Of a DNA stretch of 64,000 nt, positions 14,697 through 62,213 are shown in pieces. Both the position numbers and the translations under genes were made by a program. Location: the IMG/VR virus record IMGVR_UViG_3300042554_001855, positions 59,212 to 123,211 of that record; one strand, 5' to 3'. Positions within the stretch are counted from its first letter, which is position 1. Every line of letters begins with the position of its first letter. This DNA is from a virus. The notes below the pieces were generated by a model. That model did no database searches. It was given only the letters and a program-made list of their open reading frames with translations, and was not told the DNA's origin.

Positions 14697-14730
14697 TATT
14701 TATATTAACACAAAAAAACACCCCCGTCAA
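14697..14730 (-). promoter_or_regulatory. psbA promoters: TTGACG-17-TAATAT overlapping a late box TATAAATA
   Basis: The minus strand has TTGACG at 14725-14730 and TAATAT at 14702-14707 with exactly 17 bp between. A T4-type late box TATAAATA (14697-14704) overlaps the -10 box. psbA could therefore be read by the host polymerase early and by the modified polymerase late. The -35 box lies in the loop of the upstream terminator. Confidence 0.65.
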
Positions 14731-14739
14731 GGGGGTGTG
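14712..14739 (-). terminator. Terminator of upstream structural block; loop carries psbA -35 box
   Basis: Minus strand ACACCCCC-TTGA-CGGGGGTGT followed by seven Ts: a strong hairpin 18 bp past the stop of the 70-aa gene. The loop/stem junction supplies the TTGACG of the psbA promoter. Confidence 0.88.
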
Positions 14740-14756
14740 CCAGTTTTGGAATTGTC

Positions 14757-14969
14757 CTACTTGCTATAGACTCCTCTTGGGAACACTTGTCCTGTTTGAG
14801 GTCTTCTTCCTGTTAAGAATCCAGGTCTTGTTTCATTAAAACTAATATCTCTATTTTCCTGAACTGGAATACTATTATTTACGGTAAAAGTTGTCTGAAC
14901 TCCAACTGGAGAAGTTGAAGCAAATCCAACAACAGCAGTTCCTAGATTAGGAATTGAAAAATCTGCCAT
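14757..14969 (-). CDS. Small virion-associated protein, 70 aa
   Basis: A 70-residue protein (MADFSIPNLGTAVVGFAST at the start, RPGFLTGRRPQTGQVFPRG near the end) with no domain I can name. It overlaps the 515-aa structural gene by one base at the TGATGG junction and ends the leftward structural block, followed by a strong terminator. Its beginning resembles that of other short fibre-linked proteins here (MAD-). Likely a minor structural or assembly protein, by position only. Confidence 0.65.
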   Translation of the reverse strand: MADFSIPNLGTAVVGFASTSPVGVQTTFTVNNSIPVQENRDISFNETRPGFLTGRRPQTGQVFPRGVYSK

Positions 14970-16516
14970 CAGACCTTCCTCGCACAGAAGAGAATTCCAG
15001 CGGTCTCATTGGACTTGTTATAAGAACCAGTAATCACAGTATAAACTTCAGAACCACTGATTGTGATTGTATCTCCCTGTTTGATATCTTGTCCCGATGC
15101 AGTTAGTTTGAAATCAATCAATACAAAATCATCAGGCATATAATAAGGACAAGGAATTAGATTTCCATTAATAGGAATACCTTTAATTACAGATGCATAT
15201 GTTGTAATTGGATATCTATTTCCATAAGTTCTTGTGGAACTCTCAATGGTTAAAGTTCCTGTATTTTTAAAACTACTATTCCTTGAAAAGATTGTTGCTT
15301 CATTAGAACTAGGATCTTCATAGTCATTACCAGCAGTTCCACCTCCAGTCGAATTTGTATATGACGTTTGAGATGATGCTATTGAATAATTTTGAGCAGC
15401 CAGTCCATAGCGACTATTTTCACTATAAATCTGAGACCATCCTGCTTCTGCTGATCTTAAGCTTATATTCTGTTCAGTAAGATACTTCATTCCAGTTAGA
15501 TAAGTTCTAAATCCAAGATGAGCAGAATCTCCACCATTTGTATTAATAGAAGGTCTAGGCATAACAACAGTAAGTCCAGCAGAAAATACTTCATCAAAAT
15601 TATATAAACTTGAAGTGAAATTATGGACAATAAATGTTGAAAACGTACTATCGTTCAGTGTTCCAGAGACTGTTGGTTGTGAATAGGAAAGAACGGCAAA
15701 ATTAGGATCAATACCAGAACGATAAATGTTTAGATTAAGGTCATGAGTTGTTGGTGAGTTTAATGTTGCAAATCTAAAAACATCTTCATATTGTGCAGAA
15801 ATTTGTGCATAAGCATCATTGGATCGATCCAATGATGTCTGAGTACCTAGCGATTCTCTAGAGATATCTAAAAATTCTGTTCCCCTAAAAGAATCTCTAT
15901 AGTATCCACCTCTATTGTTAACGTTATCTACATTGTATGGGAAAAATGATGATCCAGCAACTAATGTCATTTGATAGTTACTATAAACCTTAAATCCCCT
16001 ATAGGTTACTCCAAATCTTTTGTTTGTATCAAAGTCCTGTTTTAATACTCCCCAAGGACGAGTGCTATCATTAGAAGGTGTGAAGTTTTTATCAAAAAAT
16101 TGATTGGTTGATCCATATCCAACTGGAGATGCACCACCATCAACATTTACAGTAATTCCTATCGCAACCGCAGATCCGCCACCAATATCAGCAGCAGATA
16201 GAGTTACATATTCTCCTTGAACATAATTTTCTCCTGGACGATTGACATAAACAGCAGATATTGAACCACTAGTTCTACTAATATCAAATGTTGCTCCTGT
16301 CCCAATACCAGTTGTAGTTGCGACAGGAACATCATAATAATATGTACCAGAAGATCCAACCGTTCCACCACCACTATAAGAACTAATACTGGTCACAAGT
16401 CCTGATATCTGAGTTCCGTGCAATTCTAACCAAGTGAATGCTTGCTCCAACTGATCAATCACATCAGTTCTTGCCCATCCTACTGATTTTGTAAATGTTG
16501 TAGTCGTAATAGCCAT
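14969..16516 (-). CDS. Virion structural protein, 515 aa
   Basis: A 515-residue protein rich in Ser, Thr, Gly and Tyr, without signal peptide or membrane span. The N-terminus (TKSVGWARTDVIDQLEQAFTW) is of a type seen in T4-like cyanophage particle proteins. Residues 60-130 are Gly/Thr-rich strands (YYYDVPVATTTGIGTGATFD), and the last 80 residues make a compact end domain (GDTITISGSEVYTVITG). It sits 8 bp after the 385-aa fibre-like gene and is translated with it. Role inferred from context: tail, baseplate or fibre component. Confidence 0.72.
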   Translation of the reverse strand: MAITTTTFTKSVGWARTDVIDQLEQAFTWLELHGTQISGLVTSISSYSGGGTVGSSGTYYYDVPVATTTGIGTGATFDISRTSGSISAVYVNRPGENYVQGEYVTLSAADIGGGSAVAIGITVNVDGGASPVGYGSTNQFFDKNFTPSNDSTRPWGVLKQDFDTNKRFGVTYRGFKVYSNYQMTLVAGSSFFPYNVDNVNNRGGYYRDSFRGTEFLDISRESLGTQTSLDRSNDAYAQISAQYEDVFRFATLNSPTTHDLNLNIYRSGIDPNFAVLSYSQPTVSGTLNDSTFSTFIVHNFTSSLYNFDEVFSAGLTVVMPRPSINTNGGDSAHLGFRTYLTGMKYLTEQNISLRSAEAGWSQIYSENSRYGLAAQNYSIASSQTSYTNSTGGGTAGNDYEDPSSNEATIFSRNSSFKNTGTLTIESSTRTYGNRYPITTYASVIKGIPINGNLIPCPYYMPDDFVLIDFKLTASGQDIKQGDTITISGSEVYTVITGSYNKSNETAGILFCARKV

Positions 16517-16523
16517 TTGTTAC

Positions 16524-17681
16524 TTATGCCTCCAGTTGAAGAAGTGTTAGATTTACAGAAATACTTGAAGTGACTCCAGAAAGATTCGTGATTGCTGCAT
16601 AAACTGTAGTATCAGCAGGGTTATTCAAATTACCACCCATTACAAAAGGAGATATGATTTGCGTTGTTGAAATGCCTGTGGTGATAACCTCAGCAATCAC
16701 TCCACTTCCAGGTGATGGATCAATACCAATCGAACGAGAGGCATCAGCAGAGCGAGATGCACTATCAGTATATAGTCTCAACCAACCTGCAGTAGAAAGA
16801 CCAACCTTCATTAATGAGTAAGACTTAAATCCAGTAATATTAGTATTGCCAATTCCATTATTTGGAATTGATGTTGTAACTCCAGATACTATTGTCCTTG
16901 ATTTAAGAGTATTAGATCCAGAGAATGATGTTGCTGTGACTACACCAGTAAAGGATGCTTGAGTTCCAAATAAAGACGCAGAATGAGTGGCAATTCCAAC
17001 AAATGTAGAAACACCAGAAACACTTAATTGGTTGGTAAAGGTAGTTCCATTGATTGTTACACCAGCACCGAGAGTTTCAAACTTTTTAACATCATCATAA
17101 TAAAGTTCGTTGGCACCATTCGCAACAAATCTTGCAATACCACCACCAGTTGAAGCATTACTAATATAAAATTCTGCATTATCAAGTAATTGATATATAA
17201 CTCGACTTCCTCCAGTTCCACCAGTCTGTTGAAAATTGAAAGTTACATCATCATTAGCAGCACTATATGAGAGTGAAAAAACATTTTCATCAGTAGGTGT
17301 TTTTAATGATAAAATTCCATTGTAAATATCGACATTAGTTCTAAATGTAGAAACACCAACAACATCCAGTTGCTTAGAAAATAAAGTAGATCCAGTAACT
17401 GTAGTGATTCCAGCAAATGTAGAAACACCAGAAACATTTAGATTACTTAAATTTGTCTGTCCTCTAACATCCAAGTCCCCTGTTGGAACTGTCGTGCCTA
17501 TACCAATTGATTTTCCAGTTCCAACAATAATATTGGAGGTTACCTGACCACCAATGGTTACATCTGTGCTGATTGCGACAGTGACAGCATTAAGATTTAA
17601 ATTATTAGGACTAGTTAAGTTTGGAGTGCCAGAAGCACCAATCAGATCTATCTGTTTTACTCCAAATTTCTTATCTGCCAT
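16524..17681 (-). CDS. Fibre-like structural protein, 385 aa
   Basis: Begins MADKKFGVKQIDLIGASGTP and then has the same repetitive GVSTF / GIATH / ISTD elements as the giant collagen-repeat protein (LNVSGVSTFAGITTVTG, LSVSGVSTFVGIATHSA), spaced about 35-40 residues. No collagen block. This shared grammar indicates related fibre shafts that may assemble together or have arisen by duplication. It follows the protease-domain protein by 17 bp. A tail-fibre role is inferred. Confidence 0.75.
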   Translation of the reverse strand: MADKKFGVKQIDLIGASGTPNLTSPNNLNLNAVTVAISTDVTIGGQVTSNIIVGTGKSIGIGTTVPTGDLDVRGQTNLSNLNVSGVSTFAGITTVTGSTLFSKQLDVVGVSTFRTNVDIYNGILSLKTPTDENVFSLSYSAANDDVTFNFQQTGGTGGSRVIYQLLDNAEFYISNASTGGGIARFVANGANELYYDDVKKFETLGAGVTINGTTFTNQLSVSGVSTFVGIATHSASLFGTQASFTGVVTATSFSGSNTLKSRTIVSGVTTSIPNNGIGNTNITGFKSYSLMKVGLSTAGWLRLYTDSASRSADASRSIGIDPSPGSGVIAEVITTGISTTQIISPFVMGGNLNNPADTTVYAAITNLSGVTSSISVNLTLLQLEA

Positions 17682-17698
17682 TTCTCTTTTTTAAGTAT

Positions 17699-19756
17699 TT
17701 AGGATTGGGTGAATAAAATGCCAGACATCTGGACACCAGAAATTGAACTCTGCTGATTAGTTGCAAAAGGGTTTCGAAGGACTTTCTTAGGAGCACCTCT
17801 CAAACTACCATTACCACGAACATTATAAGAATCATTAGTACTAGATGCAGAATCAAAAGTAGCATTATAAGTCTGTGACCAATATCCCGTAGAATTTGGG
17901 TCTGGATATGGATCTGACAAATTGATTTCTACACTTCCATGTCTATCTAACCACTCATGTACATCTGCTTGCGTTGCTTTTCGATTTGATTCAAGATACA
18001 AAGCAATTGCTGAACAAGTATTTGGTCCTGCAGAGCTGGTGCCATTAAACCAAGTATCATAAAAAGTTATATTATCCTGTCTCGCAAAATCTTCATATGT
18101 GGATGTATATCCTGCAGCCATGGTCATTTCTGCAGGTGCCCAAACATTAATCATTGGACCAGAGTTAGAATAACAAACTCTCCTGATTGCATATGGAGTA
18201 GATCCTTGCTTTGAATCTGCTGGCTCTACAGAACAATCTAAAGCACCCACTCGTATAGTTCCTTTTTTCCTCTCATGAATGCCAGTGAATCCTCTACTAA
18301 CCCCCCCACAACGATTAACATAATTCGTTGTGGAACTATACCAATTATTAAAATCTACATCAGTTTCATCAGAAAACTTTTGATTTTGATTTCCTGCAGA
18401 TGTTACAACGATACATCCAGCAGCAATGGCATTTTCTGCTGAAGCACTTGTTGTTGCAGAATGTGGAGTATATTCACCGCTGCCAGAATAAGCAGATAAA
18501 GCGGTTCCCCCACCAGTATTATAAGTAAAAGATTTTGTATTTCTGCAAGCACCAGCATTTGCCTGAACAGTGAAACTACTTCCATTGCCAGTATAACTTA
18601 ATGTTGCACCTCGATATCCATGACTATATGGAGTACCATTTGTATTACCAGTTGTTGAAGTCTGACCCCAACTATTATTAATAATCGTAGGATCTGGATT
18701 TCCATTCTGAGCAATTCTTTTTGCCTGGTGCCAAATAGTACAAATATCCAGTGCTGATGACCCAGCAATATATCCACCTACTCCACTAAGAGAAATTCTA
18801 ATATTCCATAAGTTGCACTCAAATGCTAATCCAAAAGATTTACCACCGATTTGAGAAGCACAAGCAGTCCCATGACCATCAACCAATTGATTACTACTCG
18901 CATTAGAAGTTTTAGTTGCTACATGAGGAACAGTATATAAAGCAGTTACCGAAACTGTTCCTAAACTTTGAAACGCAGCAGAGCGACTAGCTGCAGTGCT
19001 CCACCATGCAGCAGCTGCAGTTGTCACAATACCAACTCCAAGATTCACGCCATCCACAATCTTAGTATAAGTTAAACCCCTACTTGTAAAGTAATCAGGA
19101 TCAACTTTATATGGACCATCAAGAATTACATCTTTAACTCTATAAGTTCCATCTGGACTTTGAAATTCTGGATGCAAATGAGCAACTCCAGAATCAATAA
19201 TGACTGCATCAACTCCTCTACCCGTCAAAGAATATTCAACATCACTCTCAGCATACGTTGTGCTAGTAACACCAACTCCTTTAAATGGCAAACTCGTGGG
19301 ATTAGTAACAAATAAGTGAGACCAATTAGAACGAGTCTCATTTAGAAAATAAGTTGTCTCAGTATCAAAAGCAGCGACTAATTCAGGTTTATTAAATGCA
19401 ATTGGTTTTTTATATCTTAGAGTATCGGTCGATTGTGGTTGCGGATACTTTTCTGGATTCAATTCCACACTTTCAATTTTAGGATGAGACTTGAGAACTT
19501 CTGCCTCTTCCTGACTCATCAAATAAATCGAAGTTCTAAGAGAATGTTCTTGAGTGTTTATGCAGGGTATTGCCCTATTTGGAATTCCATCAATCTCATT
19601 TTCATTGATGATGTAACCATGAATCTCTTCCCAATCTCCAGCATCCTCAACAACAACAATATATTCATCAATAGGGTCTGGAGAATACTCTATGACAGGA
19701 GTTTCTGGAGATAGAACAATCTCAACATCTTCTGATATGGGAAGTAATCGTGTCAT
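17699..19756 (-). CDS. Structural protein with subtilisin-like (S8) protease domain, 685 aa
   Basis: The subtilase triad is visible in order: Asp188 in VDAVIIDSGVAHLHPEF, His295 in VDGHGTACASQIGG, and Ser574 in FNGTSSAGPNTCSAIALY, with the oxyanion Asn region IINNSWGQ and the ITSAGNQN-type strand (VVTSAGNQNQ) between. The N-terminal 150 residues include an IYLMSQEEAEVLKSHPKIESV stretch like an inhibitor/prodomain. No signal peptide. It lies between two fibre-type genes (gap of 1 bp upstream), so it is probably carried on the particle, maturing a virion protein or cutting host surface proteins. Catalytic residues look intact. Confidence 0.85.
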   Translation of the reverse strand: MTRLLPISEDVEIVLSPETPVIEYSPDPIDEYIVVVEDAGDWEEIHGYIINENEIDGIPNRAIPCINTQEHSLRTSIYLMSQEEAEVLKSHPKIESVELNPEKYPQPQSTDTLRYKKPIAFNKPELVAAFDTETTYFLNETRSNWSHLFVTNPTSLPFKGVGVTSTTYAESDVEYSLTGRGVDAVIIDSGVAHLHPEFQSPDGTYRVKDVILDGPYKVDPDYFTSRGLTYTKIVDGVNLGVGIVTTAAAAWWSTAASRSAAFQSLGTVSVTALYTVPHVATKTSNASSNQLVDGHGTACASQIGGKSFGLAFECNLWNIRISLSGVGGYIAGSSALDICTIWHQAKRIAQNGNPDPTIINNSWGQTSTTGNTNGTPYSHGYRGATLSYTGNGSSFTVQANAGACRNTKSFTYNTGGGTALSAYSGSGEYTPHSATTSASAENAIAAGCIVVTSAGNQNQKFSDETDVDFNNWYSSTTNYVNRCGGVSRGFTGIHERKKGTIRVGALDCSVEPADSKQGSTPYAIRRVCYSNSGPMINVWAPAEMTMAAGYTSTYEDFARQDNITFYDTWFNGTSSAGPNTCSAIALYLESNRKATQADVHEWLDRHGSVEINLSDPYPDPNSTGYWSQTYNATFDSASSTNDSYNVRGNGSLRGAPKKVLRNPFATNQQSSISGVQMSGILFTQS

Positions 19757-19757
19757 A

Positions 19758-22595: not shown

Positions 22596-22630
22596 TAATA
22601 TAAAGGTTTTCTTTTTAATAATAGTATTTA

Positions 22631-22795
22631 TTATACCCTGTATTCCTCTATTTTATCAAGAACTTTGTTGAGATAATGATGGGCTAACCACTTAGGATCA
22701 TATCCAGACTTATTCATCCACTCTTTATCCAAGTCTGCCTTTAATTTAATAACCTCACACTTGATAATATCTTTGGTCAGGTGTCCGCGTGGCAT
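22631..22795 (-). CDS. Small phage hypothetical protein, 54 aa
   Basis: ATG at 22795 opens 54 codons: a basic start (MPRGHLTKDIIKCEVIKLKA) and an amphipathic remainder (SGYDPKWLAHHYLNKVLDKI). No membrane span. It is read after the peroxiredoxin terminator and before the collagen-repeat gene. Similar short soluble proteins are widespread in T4-like cyanophages; function unknown. Confidence 0.65.
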   Translation of the reverse strand: MPRGHLTKDIIKCEVIKLKADLDKEWMNKSGYDPKWLAHHYLNKVLDKIEEYRV

Positions 22796-22802
22796 AATAC
22801 TA

Positions 22803-22834: not shown

Positions 22835-22854
22835 AAATATTATGAAGTCTTATA

Positions 22855-23513: not shown

Positions 23514-23785
23514 TTTTTTTCTCCTTGATAGGGGTGTTGTTGTTTAAGTTCTGGATTGGGTTGGGAGAAGACCATAGGACTTCTGGTTTTATTCTTGATA
23601 ACAATAAAAGCGTCGTTCTGATAGGTTACGGTTCCAAATGGCTTCGCCCACTTTGCATTTGCGTCTGGGTGAGTCGCAGTTCCAGTTACTGCTACTCCAC
23701 CAATCTCAACAGAGAGTTCATCATTCATATCCCACCCAAGTTCTTGAAGGGCAAGTGCAAACTGCCCAAGCATTCCAGCGGTCAC
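23510..23785 (-). CDS. Hypothetical protein in light-stress unit, 91 aa
   Basis: A soluble 91-residue protein with no recognised family. The GTG start overlaps the ferredoxin stop (GTGA) and GAGG lies seven bases ahead, so GTG is preferred to the ATG four codons later. Sequence features: amphipathic [19 protein letters not shown], then a beta-rich middle ([32 protein letters not shown]). Placement between ferredoxin and hli suggests a photosynthesis-linked role, but nothing in the sequence shows one. Confidence 0.65.
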
Positions 23786-24072
23786 AGGTTTTCCTCTTGC
23801 TCAGTGAGAATCACACAATCGCTAGTAGGATAGGCAACACATGTGAGTACCCAACCGTCAGCAATTTGGTCATCATCCAGGAAAGACTGTTCTTCATTAT
23901 CGACGGTGCCACTAATCAGTTTTCCAGCACAGGCAGAGCAAGCACCTGCCTTACAGGAGGAAGGAAGATCGACACCTGCGTCTTCTGCTGCTTCAAGAAT
24001 GTACTGATCACCTTCACACTGGATGGTGGTCTCAGTGCCATCGGGAGAGCGGAGAGTAACATTATAAGCCAT
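23782..24072 (-). CDS. petF: Plant-type [2Fe-2S] ferredoxin
   Basis: 96 residues with the canonical four cysteines: three in [15 protein letters not shown] (residues about 39-47) and one in [12 protein letters not shown] (about 77). The start [15 protein letters not shown] and the tail are typical of photosynthetic ferredoxin, which carries electrons from photosystem I to ferredoxin-NADP reductase or other acceptors in the cytoplasm. Phage ferredoxins can supply reductant for bilin or nucleotide synthesis. It is flanked by a 28-codon membrane peptide and the 91-aa gene, all leftward and overlapping. Confidence 0.95.
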
Positions 24073-24175: not shown

Positions 24176-24370
24176 TCAGAAGATTCCGAAGAAGAACTTG
24201 TCAGTGAGAGCATAAGAAATAAACCCAGCAATAATGCCGACCATTGCCCAACGCCCATTAGTTTTCTCCTTTACTTGATTGGGCGTATCCATCCCATAAT
24301 TTTCATAGTACATTACGGGCTCTTTAGCAAACATATTTTGCTGCCCATACTCATTCGTTGTTACAGTCAT
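24176..24370 (-). CDS. hli: High-light-inducible protein, 64 aa
   Basis: The chlorophyll-binding motif KEKTNGRWAMVGIIAGFISY (about residues 34-53), with Asn/Arg and Glu ligands, is clear, followed by ALTDKFFFGIF. The N-terminus is a longer polar arm than in the 39-aa copy. First gene of the light-stress unit, transcribed from a near-consensus sigma70 promoter 29-57 bp upstream. Function as for other Hli proteins: photoprotection in the thylakoid. Two different hli genes in one unit point to separate acquisition or early divergence. Confidence 0.92.
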   Translation of the reverse strand: MTVTTNEYGQQNMFAKEPVMYYENYGMDTPNQVKEKTNGRWAMVGIIAGFISYALTDKFFFGIF

Positions 24371-24398: not shown

Positions 24399-24427
24399 AT
24401 TATATAGCAAAAATAAAGGGGCGTCAA
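24399..24427 (-). promoter_or_regulatory. Promoter of light-stress unit, TTGACG-17-TATAAT
   Basis: Minus strand TTGACG (24422-24427) and TATAAT (24399-24404), exactly 17 bp apart, 28 bp ahead of the hli ATG. The -35 box is the loop of the glycan-operon terminator. Confidence 0.75.
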
Positions 24428-24436
24428 GCCCCCTTT
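24415..24436 (-). terminator. Terminator of the glycan operon, loop contains TTGAC
   Basis: Minus strand AAAGGGG-GCTTGACG-CCCCTTT followed by ATTTTT. It lies about 37 bp past the last glycosyltransferase stop and overlaps the promoter of the hli unit. Confidence 0.82.
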
Positions 24437-38231: not shown

Positions 38232-38260
38232 ATTATAATAAAAAAGGGAGTTGTTGTCAA
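38232..38260 (-). promoter_or_regulatory. Promoter of the glycan operon, TTGACA-17-TATAAT
   Basis: Minus strand: a perfect -35 TTGACA (38255-38260) and a perfect -10 TATAAT (38232-38237) exactly 17 bp apart, 25 bp ahead of the GTG start. The -35 box is part of the terminator hairpin of the previous unit. Confidence 0.85.
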
Positions 38261-38267
38261 CTCCCTT
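38239..38267 (-). terminator. Terminator before glycan operon, loop contains TTGACA
   Basis: Minus strand AAGGGAGTT-GACAAC-AACTCCCTT followed by TTTTATTA: a nine-pair stem and a U-tract that merges into the -10 region of the next unit. Confidence 0.85.
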
Positions 38268-38285
38268 GATTCTTTTCAGGCTCGC

Positions 38286-38425
38286 CACCAATTCTTTGAC
38301 TGGAAATTGGAAACCAGGCGGGAGAGAGTCCCATCCGCACCACTTGCTTTTTTATGGGAAAGCAAGAAACCAGAAGGGGTCAAATTTGACTCCACCACTT
38401 GGTTTTAAGAAACCAAGAAAAGTTG
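38286..38425. repeat. Three tandem structured repeats of about 52-55 bp
   Basis: Three units begin with (C)CACCA at 38285, 38338 and 38392. Each continues into a hairpin whose sequence differs but whose pairing is kept (plus strand CCAATT/AATTGG; CTTGCTTT/AAAGCAAG; CTTGGTTT/AAACCAAG), then AAACCAG or AAAAG, then a second possible small hairpin. No convincing ORF spans them. Compensating stem changes argue for an RNA (or hairpin DNA) function. Lies between a small membrane-protein gene and the glycan operon. Confidence 0.6.
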
Positions 38426-45355: not shown

Positions 45356-45384
45356 ATAATACATTAAAAAGGGGGTTTTGTCAA
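45356..45384 (-). promoter_or_regulatory. Promoter TTGACA-17-TATTAT after pstS
   Basis: Minus strand TTGACA (45379-45384) and TATTAT (45356-45361), 17 bp apart. TTGACA is the loop region of the pstS terminator. Serves the two small genes and tRNA-Val. Confidence 0.75.
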
Positions 45385-45390
45385 CCCCCC
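45366..45390 (-). terminator. pstS terminator, loop contains TTGACA
   Basis: Minus strand GGGGGTT-GACA-AAACCCCC followed by five Ts, just after the pstS stop codon. Confidence 0.85.
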
Positions 45391-45396
45391 TATGTA

Positions 45397-46374
45397 TCAC
45401 TTCTCGCCCAGACCGACTTGTTGAACTTTCAGACGGGCACGGTTCAGGACCGAACCAGCAAGAGGAACATAACCCAGGTCATCAGCAATCGACTGTGCCT
45501 TAGAACTCAGAGCATAGTTCAGAGCATCACGAACAGCAGATGCCTTACCAGGAGCATAACCACTCTTATAGGCAAGAATCCAAGTCAGAGTGGAGATAGG
45601 ATAGGCACGGGCACCTGCAGGATTGGGATCTTCTCCAGCAAGGGTCACGGGGTCCAGTTTGATGCCATTCAGAGCGGCAGCACCAGTCACAGCAGAAGGT
45701 CCAACAAACTTACCTGCCTTGTTCTGAAGCACAGCAGCCTGGAGTTTGTTAGCACGAACGAATCCAGTGTTCAGATAACCGATACCGCCAGGAGTGTTAG
45801 AAAGGGTTCCAGCAACGCCTTCGTTACCTTTAGCACCAACACCAGTAGGCCAGTTGATTGACTTACCAACACCCGCAGTCCAACCACCAAAAGCATCCAG
45901 AGAATTAGTGAATGCATAGGTAGTTCCAGAACCGTCTGAACGATGGACAACTCTGATAGAACCAGCAGCACAACCAACTTCCTTCCAGTCCTTGATGTGT
46001 CCCATAAAGATATGGACAACTTGTTTCTGAGTCAGTTTCAGTTTGCATCCAGGCTTGTTATAGGCAACAGCAATAGTTCCACCGACCATAGGAATCTGAA
46101 CGACACCACGCTTTACTTTTGCTGCTTCCTTTGCTTTGATAGGTTCATCAGTAGCACCAAAATCAACAGTTCCAGCAACGAACTGGCGAACGCCAGCACC
46201 AGAACCAACGGACTGATAATTGACTTTTTCACCAGTGGTGGAAGAATAATCAACGAACCAACGCTGGTAGATAGGTGCAGGGAAGGTAGCACCAGCACCA
46301 TTAATAGCAGGTCCAGCAAATGCGGTAGCGGGAGCAAGAGCGAGACCGATTGTAGCAATATGTTTGAGTTTCAT
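45397..46374 (-). CDS. pstS: Phosphate-binding periplasmic protein PstS
   Basis: 325 residues with a signal peptide (KHIATIGLALAPATAFA, cleavage before GPAINGAG). Family blocks: INGAGATFPAPIYQRWFVDY, YQSVGSGAGVRQFVAGTVDF, FGATDEPI, and HRSDGSGTTYAFTNSL, whose Ser/Gly/Thr and Arg/Asp bind phosphate. It captures phosphate in the periplasm for the host Pst ABC transporter. Phage pstS is known from cyanophages of phosphate-poor water and is controlled by host PhoB; a Pho-box-like repeat is visible upstream. Adjacent to a porin gene, with its own terminator. Confidence 0.95.
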   Translation of the reverse strand: MKLKHIATIGLALAPATAFAGPAINGAGATFPAPIYQRWFVDYSSTTGEKVNYQSVGSGAGVRQFVAGTVDFGATDEPIKAKEAAKVKRGVVQIPMVGGTIAVAYNKPGCKLKLTQKQVVHIFMGHIKDWKEVGCAAGSIRVVHRSDGSGTTYAFTNSLDAFGGWTAGVGKSINWPTGVGAKGNEGVAGTLSNTPGGIGYLNTGFVRANKLQAAVLQNKAGKFVGPSAVTGAAALNGIKLDPVTLAGEDPNPAGARAYPISTLTWILAYKSGYAPGKASAVRDALNYALSSKAQSIADDLGYVPLAGSVLNRARLKVQQVGLGEK

Positions 46375-48112: not shown

Positions 48113-48188
48113 TAACCAAATCTTAAAAGATAATTAAGTTGGTGGTATCATAGCATAACCGTATCGGTTGTGTCAATTAAGATACGGT
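48113..48188 (-). promoter_or_regulatory. Distal porin promoter in a hairpin loop, with possible Pho-box-like repeats
   Basis: Minus strand hairpin ACCGTATC/GATACGGT (48158-48188) holds TTGACA (48171-48176) in its loop; TATGAT (48147-48152) follows at 18 bp. Just beyond are three 8 bp units, CTTAATTA-TCT-TTTAAGAT-TTG-GTTAAGTC, spaced like a weak Pho box. There is no U-tract, so termination is doubtful. Confidence 0.45.
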
Positions 48189-48199
48189 TAAGATTATTG

Positions 48200-55574: not shown

Positions 55575-55786
55575 CAGAAAGGTAACTTGAACTTCTCAGT
55601 ATTTAGTTTGGGGATAGGAAGTTTCTCAAATGCTTTGCTGACTTGCTTCTCTACAACAGCACCGACGAACTCTTCTGGGTTGTCCAGAATCTTCTGTGCT
55701 TTCTGATAAGTCACATAAGCACCATAGCATAGTGCTCCACTCACCGCCAGACTTGCCGCTGATAAAATAAGTGCTAGGTTCTTCAT
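55574..55786 (-). CDS. Small anchored protein, 70 aa
   Basis: N-terminal hydrophobic segment (LALILSAASLAVSGALCYGAY) followed by a polar, amphipathic tail with KAFEKLPIPKLNTEKFKLPF. The tail recalls small membrane-linked proteins of phages. ATGA overlap with the lipase-like gene. Function unknown. Confidence 0.7.
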   Translation of the reverse strand: MKNLALILSAASLAVSGALCYGAYVTYQKAQKILDNPEEFVGAVVEKQVSKAFEKLPIPKLNTEKFKLPF

Positions 55787-56379
55787 TTTAGTAACTTCTC
55801 AATTGCGTTATAATAGTAAACAGCATTATGGTCTTCTACACCATCAAATCTCTTATCATCAGCATCTTCTAAATGAATCTCTGGATGAGTATGAACATAT
55901 CCAGTCAAGAAAGGTGGAGTTTTGGGAACAACATCATCGCCGTGAACAAAACGAAGGTGCTCTACATTCTTCAGTCTTTCTTTCAAACCTCTACCACCTG
56001 GACGGGGAGAACCAATTGTGATGATTGCTAGGTCTGGTGCGGACTTAAGCATAAGGTCAGCAACAACAGTCGCAGTCGCACCACCAAGAGAGTGTCCCGC
56101 AAGAATCAGTTTTCTACCCTTCTCTAGTGACTCAAAGTTTAATACTAACTCAGTAATTGTTCTGGTAGCATTATCTTTAAATCCCCTGTGAGTATCCTCA
56201 CTACGGAATAAGAATTTTAGATTAGTTGCCCAGTCTGATGTTTCGTTGGTTCCCTCAATTGCGAGAATACAATATCCAGGAATACTCTTATCTACAATGA
56301 AATCATTCTTATCAGCATAAACATCAACACAGTTTTTAACTGCCTTTAGAATGACTTCCTTTGGTAATGTTGTGTTCAT
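55783..56379 (-). CDS. Class 3 lipase-like hydrolase, 198 aa
   Basis: The nucleophile elbow LILAGHSLGGATATVVADLM (Ser at about residue 106), the Asp in HGDDVVPKTPPF and the late His in GVEDHNAVYYYN reproduce the class 3 lipase triad. No signal peptide is visible, so it would act in the cytoplasm or on the inner face of membranes. Phospholipid hydrolysis at lysis or membrane remodelling are possible roles. Near membrane proteins and cell-wall hydrolases. Confidence 0.8.
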   Translation of the reverse strand: MNTTLPKEVILKAVKNCVDVYADKNDFIVDKSIPGYCILAIEGTNETSDWATNLKFLFRSEDTHRGFKDNATRTITELVLNFESLEKGRKLILAGHSLGGATATVVADLMLKSAPDLAIITIGSPRPGGRGLKERLKNVEHLRFVHGDDVVPKTPPFLTGYVHTHPEIHLEDADDKRFDGVEDHNAVYYYNAIEKLLK

Positions 56380-56488
56380 CTTTCATCTCCTCGTTTGCTA
56401 ACCGTAGTATATAGTAAATGATATACGAAACAAAGATAAGTCCTGGACCAAGAATCGCCATTACTCCCCAAGGAAATTCTTGCGGCAT
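56336..56488 (-). CDS. Single-span membrane protein, 50 aa
   Basis: ATG shares one base with the stop of the metallopeptidase-like gene (TAATG). One helix (GVMAILGPGLIFVSYIIYYI) then a charged tail. Its end overlaps the start of the lipase gene by 44 bp. Function unknown; size and form fit a small lysis-related or holin-like protein. Confidence 0.65.
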   Translation of the reverse strand: MPQEFPWGVMAILGPGLIFVSYIIYYILRLANEEMKDEHNITKGSHSKGS

Positions 56489-57234
56489 TAGAACTTACCT
56501 TCTACACAATAATCTGCTTTTTTATTTGGTGTATATTCCTTATGACCTTCTTGGGGTTTCATCCAACCACATCCAATCAACCATTCCATCGTCATCGGAG
56601 TGGGTCTTACCTGCTCCCAGAGTGGTCCTTTCGCACACATTTCTAGGTGCTTTGCCGTTTGACCTAACTGTTCTTCTGCCCAGTTCGCATCTGCCTCCCA
56701 AGGCACAGCACGACTTTGACCCATAGACTCATAAGAAAGCCTTGTGGTCTTCATTACCCAAGATGGTATTTCAGCATCTTGATGAACCTGAGCCATAAAT
56801 GCTGTTTCTATTCCACCACCCATACAGTCCTGAACAACGTGCCATCCTTCGTGACGTAGTGTTCCTAGAAACTCTCTTGGGTCTTTGAGTAACTCTTCAT
56901 TTATAAAAAGACGATTATACTTTGGTTTATATAACCCTACTGTTCTTGGTGTGAAATATCTGGGTGGAGCAATATAAACACCAACATTGACTTTCTCTAG
57001 TCCTACTAAAATACGCTTGACTTCTTCTCTGAATGGGTCAAGTTCTTTTGCTTTGAGTAATTCTGATTCTGATGTAAGTTTCTCAACACCTTCAGTACAT
57101 TCTAATAGAATCATACAACCCATCGCTGCCAGACTATATGCTGGAACGGTGGGTTGTTTCTTTACTATTTTTTCAGCACTTGCGGGAAGAACTAAACTTA
57201 ATGATAGACCGATTGCCGTGAGGAGTTTTTTCAT
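56488..57234 (-). CDS. Exported zincin-like protein (HExxH), 248 aa
   Basis: ATG 57234 is favoured because it overlaps the upstream stop (ATGA) and gives a signal peptide (KKLLTAIGLSLSLVLPASA). The zinc motif is in TLRHEGWHVVQDC (HEGWH), with a probable third ligand in WEADANWAEEQLGQ. Several Cys could form disulfides. Family not named; similar exported proteins occur in marine picocyanobacterial phages. Probably a periplasmic metallopeptidase. Confidence 0.7.
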   Translation of the reverse strand: MKKLLTAIGLSLSLVLPASAEKIVKKQPTVPAYSLAAMGCMILLECTEGVEKLTSESELLKAKELDPFREEVKRILVGLEKVNVGVYIAPPRYFTPRTVGLYKPKYNRLFINEELLKDPREFLGTLRHEGWHVVQDCMGGGIETAFMAQVHQDAEIPSWVMKTTRLSYESMGQSRAVPWEADANWAEEQLGQTAKHLEMCAKGPLWEQVRPTPMTMEWLIGCGWMKPQEGHKEYTPNKKADYCVEGKF

Positions 57235-57425
57235 TCTCGTCCCTCTTGATGATGTATCCAAACTTTCAAATCTTTTACATATTTTCTTAAGGTTTCTGCT
57301 TGTGATAGGTGCCACTCTTCTTGTGTATCTAGATACAGTCTCATATGATTATCAACTGCGTCTAGACACTTTTTAATTACAGGATTCCAAGGCTCCCGAA
57401 TCGGAGTGTTCCACTCTCGTGGCAT
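57231..57425 (-). CDS. Hypothetical protein, 64 aa
   Basis: Soluble 64-residue protein, Trp- and His-rich (MPREWNTPIREPWNPVIKKC, YLDTQEEWHLSQAETL). Stop overlaps the signal-peptide gene's ATG. It follows the Lys-rich peptide gene by six bases. Function unknown. Confidence 0.65.
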   Translation of the reverse strand: MPREWNTPIREPWNPVIKKCLDAVDNHMRLYLDTQEEWHLSQAETLRKYVKDLKVWIHHQEGRE

Positions 57426-57431
57426 AATACC

Positions 57432-57545
57432 TCACTTTTTTTTACCACCGTTTTTTGCTTTGTTTGCCGTCGCATTTCCTTGGTTCTGCTTAGAGTTTTT
57501 ACCTCCAGCAGAACCTTTCTTGCCTTTGTTTGCGGACTTTGCCAT
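57432..57545 (-). CDS. Lys/Gly/Asn-rich basic peptide, 37 aa
   Basis: ATG overlaps the stop of the membrane protein gene (TAATG). The peptide is almost only Lys, Gly, Asn, Ala and Ser (MAKSANKGKKGSAGGKNSKQ), strongly basic, and lacks secondary structure. Possible nucleic-acid binder or low-complexity artefact; the coupling supports reality. Confidence 0.5.
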   Translation of the reverse strand: MAKSANKGKKGSAGGKNSKQNQGNATANKAKNGGKKK

Positions 57546-57862
57546 TATGCTCCACCTGTGCGGGGTTGAACTTGACCCTCTTCCAGTGCTTCAACTCTTG
57601 CTTCAAGATTTGTAACAGGTGCTTCTGCTACTGGAGCAGGTGGTTCTGGAGGAGCTTCTACAACTGCTTCTCTGCGTGGCTCTTCTTTCTTCTCATCATC
57701 CTCACCACCTTTCTTCATTGTATTAATACCAAAAGTGGCAGCAGAAGCGGTGAAGACCGTCGCAATAAAGGTAGGATCCATTTTGGATAGCATACCAGCA
57801 TAGCTAGCAGTCAGAAGAGCGGCAGACCAACTCAAAATAGCAATACGAATCACTTGTCCCAT
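57545..57862 (-). CDS. Two-span membrane protein, holin-like, 105 aa
   Basis: Start ATG 57862 is preferred for AAAGGA ahead. Two hydrophobic segments (VIRIAILSWSAALLTASYAG, PTFIATVFTASAATFGINTM) are followed by a charged, Pro/Ala/Glu tail (KKGGEDDEKKEEPRREA) of about 50 residues. This layout fits a class II-type holin, and cell-wall hydrolase genes lie close by, but no holin family motif is clear. Confidence 0.55.
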   Translation of the reverse strand: MGQVIRIAILSWSAALLTASYAGMLSKMDPTFIATVFTASAATFGINTMKKGGEDDEKKEEPRREAVVEAPPEPPAPVAEAPVTNLEARVEALEEGQVQPRTGGA

Positions 57863-57921
57863 AGCTTTTTCCTTTGTGTTTCCCATCAGTCCGTGTGATG
57901 AAGTCTGTTTTATTTAGGTTT

Positions 57922-59946
57922 TTAGAACTTAAATTTAACTTTTCCAGCAATAGAATTGTTGGTGACTCCATTATTCACACCGTGAGATGCTTCAACAATC
58001 AACATCTCCTTATAATCTACTTCTGCAGTAACTCCATATGAGTTATCAGTACCATAAGCACCTTCTACACTGACACCAAACAAGTCTTTCTTCTTACCAC
58101 CAAAACGAGTTTCAAGTTTGAGACCTGCTTCACCAACGTGAGATGTTTGATTGAATTCTTCAACACTTCTAGCAGACTGAATCGAACCAGTTTCCACATA
58201 AGCGTTTCTCTTGTTATTCCACACAGTATAACCAATAAATGGTTTAATTGCTTTATGAAGATGCCAGTATAAACGATTCGAAACCCACCACTCAGAACCA
58301 GTCGTTGCACCTTCATTATTGAAGACGCCCTCTACGGTTCTGTTGTAATTGTATTTGCTGTTTGCAATCGCAGCATTTGTATTCAGAGTCAGTGTATTAC
58401 CTCTAAGTTCGCTGAATACACCAAAGTGATCTTTGTTGTGTTGCGTAATTGAATCAACACCATTGAGGTTTATATTAACTCTATTATACTGGAAACCAAC
58501 AGTCCAACCTTTGGTAGCATCAAACTCAAAACCACCACCAAAAATCTTGGAATCAGCATTGTATCCATCAGCATTGTATGACTGAACAAATCTGTTGTTC
58601 TCAAATACTCTGAGTCTTTGCTTACCTACAGTTGGTTCATGATTTAAAAGTCCGTTGATACTATCATTGATACCATCAAGAACTTCTAATTGATCAATAC
58701 GTCCATAGAAATCGTCATAAGCGTGTGAAGTTTCGACAGAGTTTGTTAAATTATAAGTAGTAACTGGTGTTCCGTTCGTAACAACGGTAGAACCGTCACT
58801 ATAAGTATCAGTTGTTACAGGAGTTGTAACTGTGGTTGTTACATAAGGTGTGGTTACATTTGTGGTGGTGTGGCGATTGATTCTTTGACGACCACCAGTT
58901 TCGGTTGCACCATGCTCTGCCAGACTTACAGTTACGACAGGAAGAGTTGTGGATTGTGCAGTCGATGAACTTACATTATTAACAGTGCTTGTGCTTACAA
59001 CTGTTGGGGTAGATGGAGTTGTAGGGGCAGAAGCAGAACCCACATCAGTAACAGTAAAAGTTGATGGAGTCGCTCCTCCAGCACCACCAGCAACTGCACC
59101 AGAACCAGCAGCGAATGCAGATGGTCCAAAAATATAAGCATATTGGATATTTACAATGTCTCCAGTATTAATACCAGAGAACATAAATCCAAGACCAATT
59201 GTATGGTCTCCACTTGGACCACCATCAGTTCCATTATAATAGTCTTCTGGATTTGTAGACCATCCAGCACTAATTCCAGAATTTACACCACCAATCTGTC
59301 CAGTAAATAATCCTAAAGCATATTTGGATACAAGTGCTTCAGAAAGAACAACGTTGGTTGCTGGAATACCACCAGCATATCCTCTAGTATTGTCCGTTCT
59401 AGAACTGTCTCCAGCAGCGGCTCTTGCGTCTGGATCCGTAAAACGTCCAAAGTATAATGTTGGAACGTTCATCTTGAATTCTAAACGAGTATTGATATCA
59501 ACAAACTGTTGGTTATCATTAAAGCGATAATCGTTTTCAATATCAAACTCAGTTACTGAACCAGACCATACGGCACGGTTATCAAAAGTAACTCCGCGAT
59601 AAGAAATACCTGAATAATCTATAAGTGTTCCAGTAATCTGCGCTCCTCCAACACTATTATTGTTATTATAGTAGTTGAAAAGAACGGTTGAACCGTCTTT
59701 ACCTTTAACAGTAAATCCTTCAAAAGGATTTCCAGGAGTCAGGTAATCGTATGCTGGATTAAACGTTGCGGTTCCAGTTGAATCATACTGAATACCAGGA
59801 GAAGTTGCTCCACCAGAACCAACGGTTCCAGCATCATTAACTCCAATCTTGACGTAGTTTCCTTCTAGGACCAATGGTGCTGCGATTGCACTACTTCCCA
59901 TCAACAAAGCAGACGCTGCAGCGAGCGCCTTTGTGGCGTAAGACAT
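57922..59946 (-). CDS. Autotransporter-like outer-membrane barrel protein, 674 aa
   Basis: Start ATG 59946 gives a signal peptide (ALAAASALLMGSSAIAA) after GAGGA. Mature part: a passenger of about 350 residues with NPFEGFTVKGKDGSTVLFNY and a Thr/Ser/Pro-rich linker (TTTNVTTPYVTTTVTTPV), then a C-terminal barrel of about 250 residues with alternating strands (TVGFQYNRVNINLNG, GVSVEGAYGTDNSYGVTAE) ending in GKVKFKF, whose terminal Phe is the barrel insertion signal. This is how type V autotransporters and some porins are built. It would display a passenger on the host or act as an adhesin. Unusual in a phage. Complete, uninterrupted. Confidence 0.8.
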   Translation of the reverse strand: MSYATKALAAASALLMGSSAIAAPLVLEGNYVKIGVNDAGTVGSGGATSPGIQYDSTGTATFNPAYDYLTPGNPFEGFTVKGKDGSTVLFNYYNNNNSVGGAQITGTLIDYSGISYRGVTFDNRAVWSGSVTEFDIENDYRFNDNQQFVDINTRLEFKMNVPTLYFGRFTDPDARAAAGDSSRTDNTRGYAGGIPATNVVLSEALVSKYALGLFTGQIGGVNSGISAGWSTNPEDYYNGTDGGPSGDHTIGLGFMFSGINTGDIVNIQYAYIFGPSAFAAGSGAVAGGAGGATPSTFTVTDVGSASAPTTPSTPTVVSTSTVNNVSSSTAQSTTLPVVTVSLAEHGATETGGRQRINRHTTTNVTTPYVTTTVTTPVTTDTYSDGSTVVTNGTPVTTYNLTNSVETSHAYDDFYGRIDQLEVLDGINDSINGLLNHEPTVGKQRLRVFENNRFVQSYNADGYNADSKIFGGGFEFDATKGWTVGFQYNRVNINLNGVDSITQHNKDHFGVFSELRGNTLTLNTNAAIANSKYNYNRTVEGVFNNEGATTGSEWWVSNRLYWHLHKAIKPFIGYTVWNNKRNAYVETGSIQSARSVEEFNQTSHVGEAGLKLETRFGGKKKDLFGVSVEGAYGTDNSYGVTAEVDYKEMLIVEASHGVNNGVTNNSIAGKVKFKF

Positions 59947-60092
59947 AAAAATCCTCTGTGACTCAGTGTGTACTAAACGAAACAAACCGAAGTTTTGTTT
60001 AAAAGTAAAGTATTCACCAAGTCCAGAGGACTCGGGCTATGTAGATTCAGACCAGTTAAGATCAAGAATCAGTAATGATTGCAACTATTTAG

Positions 60093-60761
60093 TTATCCTT
60101 TTTTCCAAGCCTCGCCTTCTGCTTTTCTTCTACGTGCTAGTCCTGCTTCTACATTTGAACCAGGATTGCGATAGAGGAATAAAGCATCGGGCACTAAGTC
60201 CCACTCTTTATTCTTCAGGCGTTTAGTAATAGTATTAAAGTTATCGCCACCGTAGAAACCAGCACCGAGATTATAAGCAAAGCTGAGCAGAGCGCCTCTT
60301 TTTCCATCTGACATTTCACTCCAATATGGGATTTTGCGTAATGCGGGAAGAAACTCCTTCTTGCACTGTTCAATCAGAAGTGCATCTGCTTCTGCCTGTG
60401 TAAGGGTATCACCAAGTTTGAATGCTGAACCATCTTTCTTGCGGGTGGAACCCCAACCGATTGTGATTGGAAGTCCCCCTGTAAGAGGGTCAGGATATGC
60501 CTTTAGGTGACATCCTTCAAACTCTTTGATTAACTTAATGCCCATTTGTGGGACATCATCACCACCTGTTACAGGAGCTGCAGCAGCGGCAGGGGCTGGT
60601 GCAGCACTAGTCTTTTTTCCTCTAAAAATCTCCGCCCAATCTACGTTATCTTCTAGATACTTGACTGGTAGGTTATCTTCTAACCACTGAACTGCCTTGA
60701 CATGGTTAGGATTTCTTTCATCATAAAACTGAAAGAAATTGTGTAAATCAACTCTTGCCAT
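60093..60761 (-). CDS. GH24 (T4-type) lysozyme with N-terminal module, 222 aa
   Basis: Residues 75-222 are a glycoside hydrolase 24 lysozyme: LIKEFEGCHLKAYPDPLTGG with the catalytic Glu, then ITIGWGST. Residues 1-48 are a module (RVDLHNFFQFYDERNPNHVK, AVQWLEDNLPVKYLEDN, WAEIFRG) that occurs also in the peptidase-like protein next to it. An Ala/Pro linker joins them. No signal peptide, so a holin would be needed. It cleaves the peptidoglycan glycan chain at lysis. Its ATG overlaps the end of a 46-aa gene. Confidence 0.9.
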   Translation of the reverse strand: MARVDLHNFFQFYDERNPNHVKAVQWLEDNLPVKYLEDNVDWAEIFRGKKTSAAPAPAAAAAPVTGGDDVPQMGIKLIKEFEGCHLKAYPDPLTGGLPITIGWGSTRKKDGSAFKLGDTLTQAEADALLIEQCKKEFLPALRKIPYWSEMSDGKRGALLSFAYNLGAGFYGGDNFNTITKRLKNKEWDLVPDALFLYRNPGSNVEAGLARRRKAEGEAWKKG

Positions 60762-60888
60762 TGTTGTCTCCTTCGAAATACTTTGAATAAAGTTGTTGTG
60801 CTTCTACGTGTCTGCCGTGATTTGTGAGGTCTTTAATCTTTTGTAAGATTTTCCTCTTGAAATTAATCGAAGATTCTTCCCCAGCCAT
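60748..60888 (-). CDS. Small protein nested between two hydrolase genes, 46 aa
   Basis: ATG 60888 lies inside the end of the peptidase-like gene with GGAGGG five bases ahead, a strong ribosome site. 46 codons follow (MAGEESSINFKRKILQKIKD, then NHGRHVEAQQLYSKYFEGDN) and overlap the lysozyme start by 14 bp. Soluble, basic. Two-way overlap and a good SD argue for a genuine gene; function unknown, perhaps lysis regulation. Confidence 0.72.
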   Translation of the reverse strand: MAGEESSINFKRKILQKIKDLTNHGRHVEAQQLYSKYFEGDNNGKS

Positions 60889-61534
60889 CGTTCCCTCCTG
60901 GACACCAGCGGTGCTTCAGCATTGCCTTAGTGTAAATGGTCTTCTTACCATTTGTTACTGGACCAGTGTAATTGTCATTGCAAGAACCATATGGATCATT
61001 GACATAATATCCTTTACCATCTGGTGTCTTACCGATGACTACACACATGTGCCCACCAGTAGGAGCAGATAAAGGACCACGGTGCAGGATACCAATAACA
61101 ACAGGTTTCCCAGCATCAAGACTCTTATCAATGTCAGCAAAAGAAAGATTATAGCTAAAGTGTGACTTAACTCCATAACCTGCCAGAACTTTTGTCTGTA
61201 CCGCATGGTCAGTCGTGTCACCAATCGCAAATACTTTTTTGACATACTCATCATCACCTTTGATGCTTCCTGGCTTGAGGAAAGCAAGGCACATTGCACA
61301 CGATGAAGAGTTACACGTTCTATGTGCATCTCTGTAGTTATCTACTTGGTTAAAATATGGAACTTCAAGAACTGCTGGAGTTGGTGGTTTTGTTCTAAAA
61401 ATACCAATCCAATCAGTTTCTGCATCGTCTAAAAACTCAGCAGGCAGGTTATCCTCTAACCATTGTACTGCTGCTACGTGATTTGAATTTTTTTCGTCGT
61501 AAAACTTAAAAAAGTTGTGAAGGTCAAGTGTCAT
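60863..61534 (-). CDS. C39-like cysteine peptidase with N-terminal module, 223 aa
   Basis: Residues 1-47 share the module of the lysozyme (LDLHNFFKFYDEKNSNHVA, AVQWLEDNLPAEFLDD). From about 55 a C39_2-like peptidase domain follows: VPYFNQVDNYRDAHRTCNSS with the catalytic Cys region, GKPVVIGILHRG, and GGHMCVVIGKTPDG with His and then YVNDPYGS with Asp. Papain-like peptidoglycan or protein cleavage is expected. No signal peptide. The pair with the lysozyme suggests a two-enzyme lysis system with a shared anchor. Confidence 0.82.
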   Translation of the reverse strand: MTLDLHNFFKFYDEKNSNHVAAVQWLEDNLPAEFLDDAETDWIGIFRTKPPTPAVLEVPYFNQVDNYRDAHRTCNSSSCAMCLAFLKPGSIKGDDEYVKKVFAIGDTTDHAVQTKVLAGYGVKSHFSYNLSFADIDKSLDAGKPVVIGILHRGPLSAPTGGHMCVVIGKTPDGKGYYVNDPYGSCNDNYTGPVTNGKKTIYTKAMLKHRWCPGGNDGWGRIFD

Positions 61535-61715
61535 CTTCCTCTCCTATGAACTCTAATGAGAAAATATCATGCTCTGGAATATTCGGATTCAACCATTCAC
61601 TAAACTCAGATTGAATCGCATGGGCATTTTCAAAACAGTTTTCTTCACAGAGAGTATGAATACGATCAACTGCCCAATCATGTGATTGTTTCAGAGTCTT
61701 TTCCAAAATTTCCAT
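61524..61715 (-). CDS. Hypothetical protein, 63 aa
   Basis: Soluble, acidic, helical 63-residue protein (MEILEKTLKQSHDWAVDRIH, then HDIFSLEFIGEEDDT). Overlaps the peptidase start by 11 bp and the upstream gene's end by 38 bp. Function unknown. Confidence 0.6.
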   Translation of the reverse strand: MEILEKTLKQSHDWAVDRIHTLCEENCFENAHAIQSEFSEWLNPNIPEHDIFSLEFIGEEDDT

Positions 61716-62127
61716 AATCTTTTCGCATGTAGCGTCCTAGGATATTACTATTGTAATACGCTGGACTCCCATCGTCAAGAGACTCGATCAACACATTATT
61801 TAGGAAAAGCTGTTTTGTTTCTTCGTAGTTACACTGTCCTTTTGTTTTATGGAGGCTAAGTATTCTTCTGTCGCAGGATGCTTTTCCCCAAATGTCAATA
61901 TCGGCTTTGAGTTCAGGACAGGAGCCGTAATATCTTTTCCAATCGGACTCTGACTTAACTTTTCTAGATTTTCCTCTTGGTGTGCGGAAAGACCAGAAAT
62001 ACTTTCTACCAATATAACTACGACCAGTTTTATTACAGTGAATATGATAAACGAAACCAAAATTATCTTGAATATCAGAAGACTCAAAAATTTCCCCATT
62101 GAATCTCCAAGGGTTTTCATAACTCAT
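61678..62127 (-). CDS. GIY-YIG-like nuclease, 149 aa
   Basis: The GIY-YIG pattern appears as DNFGFVYHIHCNKTGRSYIG (F-V-Y ... Y-I-G, spacing 12-13) followed by the RK of the first helix (GRKYFW). Later Arg/Glu residues (DRRILSL, NYEETKQLF) fit the catalytic Glu region, but the Glu is not certain. Small stand-alone GIY-YIG enzymes are homing nucleases in T4-like phages. Possibly degenerate. Confidence 0.6.
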   Translation of the reverse strand: MSYENPWRFNGEIFESSDIQDNFGFVYHIHCNKTGRSYIGRKYFWSFRTPRGKSRKVKSESDWKRYYGSCPELKADIDIWGKASCDRRILSLHKTKGQCNYEETKQLFLNNVLIESLDDGSPAYYNSNILGRYMRKDYGNFGKDSETIT

Positions 62128-62175
62128 ACTAAGAATCTTTATGAGCTATTATTTATCTTCAACCCTAGCAAAGCG

Positions 62176-62205
62176 ATTCTAGCAATAAAAAAGCACCCCT
62201 GTCAA
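62176..62205 (-). promoter_or_regulatory. Promoter TTGACA-18-TAGAAT
   Basis: Minus strand TTGACA (62200-62205) lies in the loop of the terminator; TAGAAT (62176-62181) follows at 18 bp. Serves the GIY-YIG-like gene and the lysis genes beyond. Confidence 0.6.
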
Positions 62206-62213
62206 GAGGTGCT
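62189..62213 (-). terminator. Terminator after structural protein gene, loop contains TTGACA
   Basis: Minus strand AGCACCTC-TTGA-CAGGGGTGCT followed by six Ts, about 20 bp past the structural gene's stop. Confidence 0.85.

Follow-up and report, generated by a model that had tools for sequence, protein, structure and literature searches.

We found that five sites in a 64,000-nucleotide stretch of viral DNA (the window; bases 59212-123211 of the 123,211-base IMG/VR virus record IMGVR_UViG_3300042554_001855) combine an intrinsic terminator with a candidate sigma70-type promoter that uses some of the same bases. The −35 hexamer lies in the apical loop of the terminator hairpin, and the −10 hexamer lies just beyond the U-tract. 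The source of the window is a T4-like cyanophage, and its best named matches are Synechococcus phages, e.g., DSL-LC03 and S-SRM01. Judged from the sequence, the best reading is that a single stretch of ~45 bp serves both as the end of one transcript and as the start of the following one, in this phage and in many of its relatives. We give a probability of roughly 0.78 to the view that the good sites are terminator-promoter joints, in which ~45 bp would serve both an intrinsic terminator and a sigma70-type promoter read by the host RNA polymerase, providing insulation and restart without extra DNA.

In such a joint, the apical loop would act as the −35, the 3' arm and the U-tract would fill the 17-bp spacer, and the −10 would follow directly. 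The joint would close the upstream unit, limit read-through, and open the next unit. If the −10 directly follows the U-tract and the spacer is 17 bp, the −35 lands in the loop; as the sole part of the hairpin that does not have to pair, the loop is free to be TTGAC.

Fused terminators and candidate promoters in the window

The sites were located by direct sequence reading and with a custom hairpin finder. Six minus-strand terminators have TTGAC at the loop apex, with stem-loops at 11677-11655, 14738-14718, 24435-24415, 38267-38244, 45391-45369, and 62214-62191. Their predicted RNA folds range from −13.1 to −15.5 kcal/mol and each has a U-tract, giving all six the GC-rich hairpin and U-tract of an intrinsic terminator. 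A −10-like hexamer lies beyond five of the six, at a spacer of 17 bp or, at 62.2 kb, 18 bp. An earlier note on this DNA had described these five as terminators with TTGACA or TTGACG loops and a −10 at this distance, and the description held, with the reservation that the −10 at 14.7 kb is weak.

The joint before hli-ferredoxin (24399..24435) has the −35 TTGACG (24427-24422) and the −10 TATAAT (24404-24399), and the joint after the wcaG RNA (38232..38267) has TTGACA (38260-38255) and TATAAT (38237-38232), both with a spacer of 17. After pstS (45356..45391), TTGACA (45384-45379) is separated by 17 bp from TATTAT (45361-45356), and at 62.2 kb (62176..62214), TTGACA (62205-62200) is separated by 18 bp from TAGAAT (62181-62176). 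With hexamers required to be 16-18 bp apart, these four candidate promoters match sigma70 in at least 11/12 letters. The joint before psbA (14697..14738) matches in 9/12, with the −35 TTGACG (14730-14725), a spacer of 17, and the −10 TAATAT (14707-14702), in which 4/6 letters match. An exact late motif, TATAAATA, at 14704-14697 overlaps this −10, making the site a mixed joint.

The sixth element, after psbD (11655..11677), is a terminator only. The earlier note had listed it as a weaker case of the joint; the terminator with TTGACT in its loop is present, and the sigma70 match failed for lack of an acceptable −10. The reverse was seen at 48.16 kb (48147..48189, minus strand), where, as previously described, a hairpin with TTGACA in its loop has no U-tract. 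This is a candidate promoter without a terminator joint, consisting of TTGACA (48176-48171), a spacer of 18, and TATGAT (48152-48147); its −35 lies in the 15-nt loop of a hairpin with arms at 48189-48181 and 48165-48157. The predicted fold of −4.8 kcal/mol was obtained for a piece without part of the 5' arm and is hence no test of that hairpin.

When positions 10-30 kb were scanned, terminator-like sites exceeded the level in shuffled sequences (20 compared to 11.7±3.4), and promoter-like sites did not (63 compared to 61.1±9.3). Lone promoter matches therefore carry little meaning, and the case rests on the coupling of terminator and promoter.

Tests of the coupling against chance

The main locus set, which is biased to psbA, consists of the 80 best among 599 IMG/VR loci retrieved through this gene. 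GTCAA, the reverse complement of TTGAC with the same letters on the other strand, was used as the control for loop content. The strict terminator sets require a U-tract and are silent on hairpins without one. Among 305 strict terminators in the 80 loci, TTGAC was at the apex of 39, level with CTTCG (40), compared to 6 for GTCAA. Nine named cyanomyoviruses gave 11 TTGAC and 4 GTCAA apices in 300 terminators, and neither was found in the 62 terminators of T4, lambda, and HTVC008M. After contexts were merged at 70% identity and the window record was added (the collapsed sets), the counts were 46 for TTGAC and 9 for GTCAA of 586. The frequency of the loop against expectation had been set beforehand as a test that could refute the earlier note, and the loop was enriched under several controls.

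The TTGAC loop was also linked to a −10 at one distance. A −10 of at least 5/6 letters was found at spacer 17 in 28/39 distinct TTGAC hairpins; the remaining spacers from 5 to 39 had 0-3 each. By flank exchange among 712 collapsed terminators, a −10 just past the U-tract together with an apical −35 of at least 4/6 letters was expected in 22.2±4.2 and observed in 65. With a −35 of at least 5/6 letters, 44 full joints were observed and 7.2±2.5 were expected. The distance from the stem end to the −10 was 7-11 nt in 57/65 joints, so that arm and U-tract together span the 17 bp to the −35, which comes to lie in the loop. The joints were mostly intergenic, with the apex inside an open reading frame (ORF) of at least 100 amino acids in 7/65 compared to 1602/2000 random positions.

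A promoter-first test, in which no hairpin was required, gave 387 distinct sigma70-type promoters at spacer 17, with 54 at 16, 91 at 18, and 22-51 at spacers 14, 15, and 19-22. A GC-rich hairpin of at least 6 pairs was centered on the −35 in 40/387 of the spacer-17 promoters and in 2/55 of the GTCAA controls. Relative to the −35, 17 of these hairpins were at offset −1 and 21 at offset 0; the other offsets from −50 to +60 had 0-5 each.

Occurrence in other phages and in cellular genomes

A fixed hairpin pattern was scanned over IMG/VR, giving at least 96 distinct sequences in 120 stretches. Among the matches listed, a −10 at 17 was found in 48/96 distinct viral sequences, compared to 5/80 for the GTCAA version, a set that partly overlaps by palindromy, and 4/80 for cellular genomes (80 of 81 stretches). 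Counted by locus among these same matches, 60/120 had a good −10; at least three ORFs matched reference phages, mostly T4-like cyanophages, in 43 of these 60 compared to 19 of the other 60, and 17 of the 60 with a good −10 were unassigned.

Full sigma70 joints, given as a share of strict terminators, were most frequent in S-SKS1 (6/33), S-SRM01 (6/45), and the window record (5/26, four of them in the window). They were also found in P-SSM2 (3/31), P-SSM7 (3/35), S-PM2 (2/26), S-SCSM1 (2/23), DSL-LC03 (2/29), S-CAM1 (2/31), S-RSM4 (1/27), S-CRM01 (1/55), S-CREM2 (1/63), and RB49 (1/58, weak). Flank exchange predicts about 3% of terminators by chance, so single cases carry no weight. No full joint was found in the strict terminators of Syn9 (31), Ma-LMM01 (23), T4 (33), lambda (20), or HTVC008M (9). 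In S-CREM2, TTGAC apices numbered 5 and GTCAA apices 3. P-SSP7 was covered for 40,000 of its 45,176 bases and Syn5 for 20,000 of 46,214.

The Stenotrophomonas jumbo phage CM1 had 7 full joints in 123 terminators; one matches in 12/12 letters, one in 11/12, and three are near-identical copies. TTGAC apices were no commoner than GTCAA in this phage (4 and 4 of 123). The three near-identical terminator-like repeats in the CM1 record (OP883945) have a TTGCCA loop followed by TATAGT. Short-query matches were not all the same module, and this idea was rejected: a match in Cronobacter CR3 was a UUCG-loop terminator without a −35, and the loops matched in P-SSM7 and S-CREM2 were weaker (TTACAC and TTGCTA).

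A host-derived signal was not supported, as 400 kb of a genome (G048) from the family of Prochlorococcus MIT 9302 had TTGAC at the apex in 0/54 terminators and no full joints. TTGAC-N18-TATAAT had 18 matches in 61 genomes of this family and 0-21 matches per cyanomyovirus record (S-RSM4 0, S-CRM01 1, S-CREM2 2, and at least 4 in the others). This near absence in the host family and frequency in most cyanomyoviruses suggest that at the −35 the promoters of the phages do not resemble those of the host. A second layout was noticed for some TTGAC-N18-TATAAT promoters, in which a GC-rich hairpin occupies the spacer between the two hexamers; by eye, it was seen in 4/10 matches in RB49, in 1 or 2 of 8 in Syn9, and in the single match in Ma-LMM01.

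Variation of the stems and neighboring genes

The 57 TTGAC-loop candidates contained 54 different stem-loops. This figure comes from the uncollapsed set; the 65 stem-loops in 65 joints were obtained after similar contexts had been collapsed. Genes following the 57 candidates included hli or hli-ferredoxin (11), psbA (5), and a ThyX family named by NCBIfam from one member (10). At hli sites, the upstream gene varies (glucosyltransferase, pstS-like, and others), and the stem changes while the −35 and −10 are kept. Two homologous hli sites with a common upstream glucosyltransferase (L008 and L049) differ in two compensated stem pairs, and the psbA sites of the window and L032 differ in one. The presence of the joint varied: in the 80 loci, a TTGAC terminator preceded 10/30 hli genes, or 10/13 of those with any upstream terminator, and 5/8 thyX genes, or 5/6 of those with any upstream terminator. 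Stems that vary while TTGAC and the −10 stay, and recurrence before the same genes (hli, thyX, and sometimes psbA), fit repeated selection. The joint thus looks like the product of selection that acted repeatedly on both pairing and promoter, most strongly before hli and thyX, with no copied element. The earlier note had proposed a spreading or selected module that was not due to chance; selection is favored by several controls, including flank exchange and the promoter-first test, and spreading is not.

In the window, the 14.7 kb joint lies upstream of psbA (13453-14535; NCBIfam psbA), with a PhotoRC-II RNA (14573..14666, minus strand; Rfam RF01717, 79.5 bits) in between. psbD (NCBIfam) is at 11795-12856. 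The 24.4 kb joint has a glucosyltransferase on one side and hli (24176-24370) and ferredoxin (23782-24072) on the other. The 45.4 kb joint is 3' of pstS (45397-46374; NCBIfam PstS), and the 62.2 kb joint is 5' of a phrog_447 gene. The 38.2 kb joint stands before a 2OG-oxygenase-like gene, also encoded in the window, and follows a wcaG RNA (Rfam RF01761, 100.7 bits).

This wcaG RNA (38274..38374, minus strand) ends 6 nt before the 38.2 kb hairpin. Including a second case in S-SRM01 (L114:12327-12424, plus strand), wcaG RNAs end 6-8 nt before a joint; the loops are TTGACA and TTGCAT, and the stems differ. Because the RNA ends before the joint, it would be upstream of the predicted promoter and outside the mRNA started there. 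A general link between wcaG and the joint was rejected, as, in the window and 20 loci scanned with Rfam, it was found for the window and S-SRM01 and not for L078 and L066, i.e., for 2/4 wcaG RNAs. In three related loci, glutamine riboswitch aptamers (RF01739; L047:6463-6509, L035:8031-8129, and L010:7494-7592) precede a TTGAC joint by ~350-500 nt.

Weaker −35 loops and late-type joints

The TTGAC joints of the earlier note are only part of the pattern. Many terminators without TTGAC also have a −10 directly past the U-tract; TTGCAC, TTGATC, TTTACA, and TTCACA are among their loops. Exact TATAAT was found 3-14 nt past the stem in 30/305 terminators of the IMG/VR loci and 29/300 of the named phages (shuffles 9.0±3.0 and 9.9±2.8, respectively). 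TAAATA was found at this distance in 16/305 and 33/300 (shuffles 6.1±2.3 and 8.2±2.4); its reversal ATAAAT, an imperfect control, gave 15 in the IMG/VR loci, about equal, and 22 in the named phages, which is fewer. In the collapsed set, TTGAC and TTG-like loops had 32 TATAAT to 2 TAAATA and UUCG loops had 6 to 14 (Fisher p = 1e-6, which ignores kinship). The link of UUCG with the late motif comes mainly from the named phages, with 12 TAAATA to 2 TATAAT in 31 compared to 3 to 4 in 42 for the IMG/VR loci. Syn9 had TAAATA past the U-tract in 2/31 terminators.

The window has two candidate late-type joints on the minus strand. In one (63574..63605), the U-tract of a UUCG-loop terminator (63605-63588) runs into TATAAATA at 63581-63574. 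In the other, after psbA (13398..13432), a GAAA-loop terminator (13432-13413) is followed by CTAAATA (13404-13398). Together with the 14.7 kb site, this gives the window two exact matches to the T4-type late motif and one CTAAATA as candidate promoters. A T4-type late promoter needs no −35, and the association of UUCG loops with TAAATA fits this. The weaker −35 loops and the UUCG loops with TAAATA appear to be variants of one and the same type of joint. A more tentative extension, which we consider doubtful, is that large lytic phages have two standard border joints, an early one with a −35 loop and a U-tract leading into a sigma70 −10 and a late one with a UUCG terminator and a late −10 without a −35. 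Both would be points of polymerase hand-off, where ending one unit loads the next, with separate origins in cyanophages and in at least one proteobacterial jumbo phage.

Alternative explanations

Several points weigh against the reading of the sites as terminator-promoter joints. The sequences are related, and the counts are hence not independent. Pairing was a requirement of the finder behind the stem counts, and the promoter-first test alone is free of that. Among the matches listed, 52/96 patterned viral hairpins were counted as lacking a −10 at 17. Syn9 had no full joint, and the one each in S-CRM01, S-RSM4, and S-CREM2 is near the chance level. Finally, a TTGAC terminator preceded only 4/115 psbA/psbD-type genes in the 80 loci, or 4/30 of those with any upstream terminator.

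The coupling itself, instead of DNA economy, could be what is selected: terminated RNA polymerase would sit on the overlapping promoter, take up sigma again, and begin the following unit, or would block the promoter while paused in the U-tract. We regard this as possible but unlikely. The geometry would place the terminated polymerase over the promoter, and, according to the available text of three reports (PMC6978380, PMC6978322, PMC11347151), Escherichia coli polymerase remains bound to DNA in vitro once it has ended a transcript at an intrinsic terminator and re-initiates close by. However, the same text states that re-initiation in vivo was not yet seen (PMC6978380), that restarts are mostly antisense (PMC6978322), and that recycling is estimated to extend over ~1000 bp (PMC11347151), so zero distance between terminator and promoter is not required for hand-off. 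The present data do not separate polymerase hand-off from DNA economy. Crowding is a less probable explanation, in which the two kinds of signal would simply lie side by side in a compact genome, and ordinary promoter drift would account for the TTGAC loop. The short intergenic gaps of phages and the many other terminators with a −10 just past the U-tract and poor −35 loops would agree with it, but crowding alone does not predict, in excess of the flank-exchange expectation, TTGAC loops coupled to a −10 exactly 17 bp away.

The hairpin at 48.16 kb, without a U-tract, could suggest that the TTGAC-loop hairpin is an operator or an RNA-protein site and no terminator. This is very unlikely, since U-tracts are clear at the other window sites, which also have stop codons immediately upstream, and since arm sequences vary freely. 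The least probable explanation, and one we strongly disfavor, is a spreading mobile repeat copied between sites. Some phages do have several copies per genome, such as the three near-identical TTGCCA copies in CM1, but the copies of a mobile repeat should be alike beyond the functional letters, and here both the stem-loops and the flanks differ. Terminator-promoter joints remain our preferred explanation, in which both halves would work in the cell and selection would favor insulation and economy of DNA.

Relation to known systems and significance

Sigma70-like early promoters, late promoters with the motif NATAAATA, and Rho-independent terminators have been predicted in cyanomyoviruses as separate features (PMC3037559, PMC2984593, PMC1524935). 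These predictions have the same parts as the joints, but neither terminator-promoter overlap nor a −35 in a loop appears in the available descriptions (PMC3037559, PMC2984593). In RB49 and S-PM2, overlapping early and late promoters control middle genes (PMC2984593). The 14.7 kb psbA site is similar in that its weak sigma70 −10 coincides with an exact late motif; the difference is the terminator, which is absent from the part of that description available to us. The E. coli recycling studies likewise have a terminator followed by a nearby promoter with possible hand-off, but there, as far as the available text goes, the elements are separate, in contrast to the common bases of the phage joint. 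Engineered terminator-promoter bifunctional elements in yeast (PMC10298055) also use one short element intended to end one unit and begin the next; as described in the accessible portion, they are synthetic and eukaryotic and have no hairpin loop as a −35. No earlier description of a fused terminator-promoter element in phages was found in our searches of open-licence papers, including the available parts of four further papers (PMC2864571, PMC10134795, PMC12282133, PMC8707807).

If both halves work, the border between two units would be solved in ~45 bp, with the unpaired part of the terminator serving as a promoter element. This would explain how neighboring units are insulated in packed phage genomes and would allow transcription units, among them the units of phage-carried photosynthesis genes, to be called more sharply in uncultured cyanophages. 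The joints would also provide a natural test bed for the role of polymerase recycling after termination in living cells.

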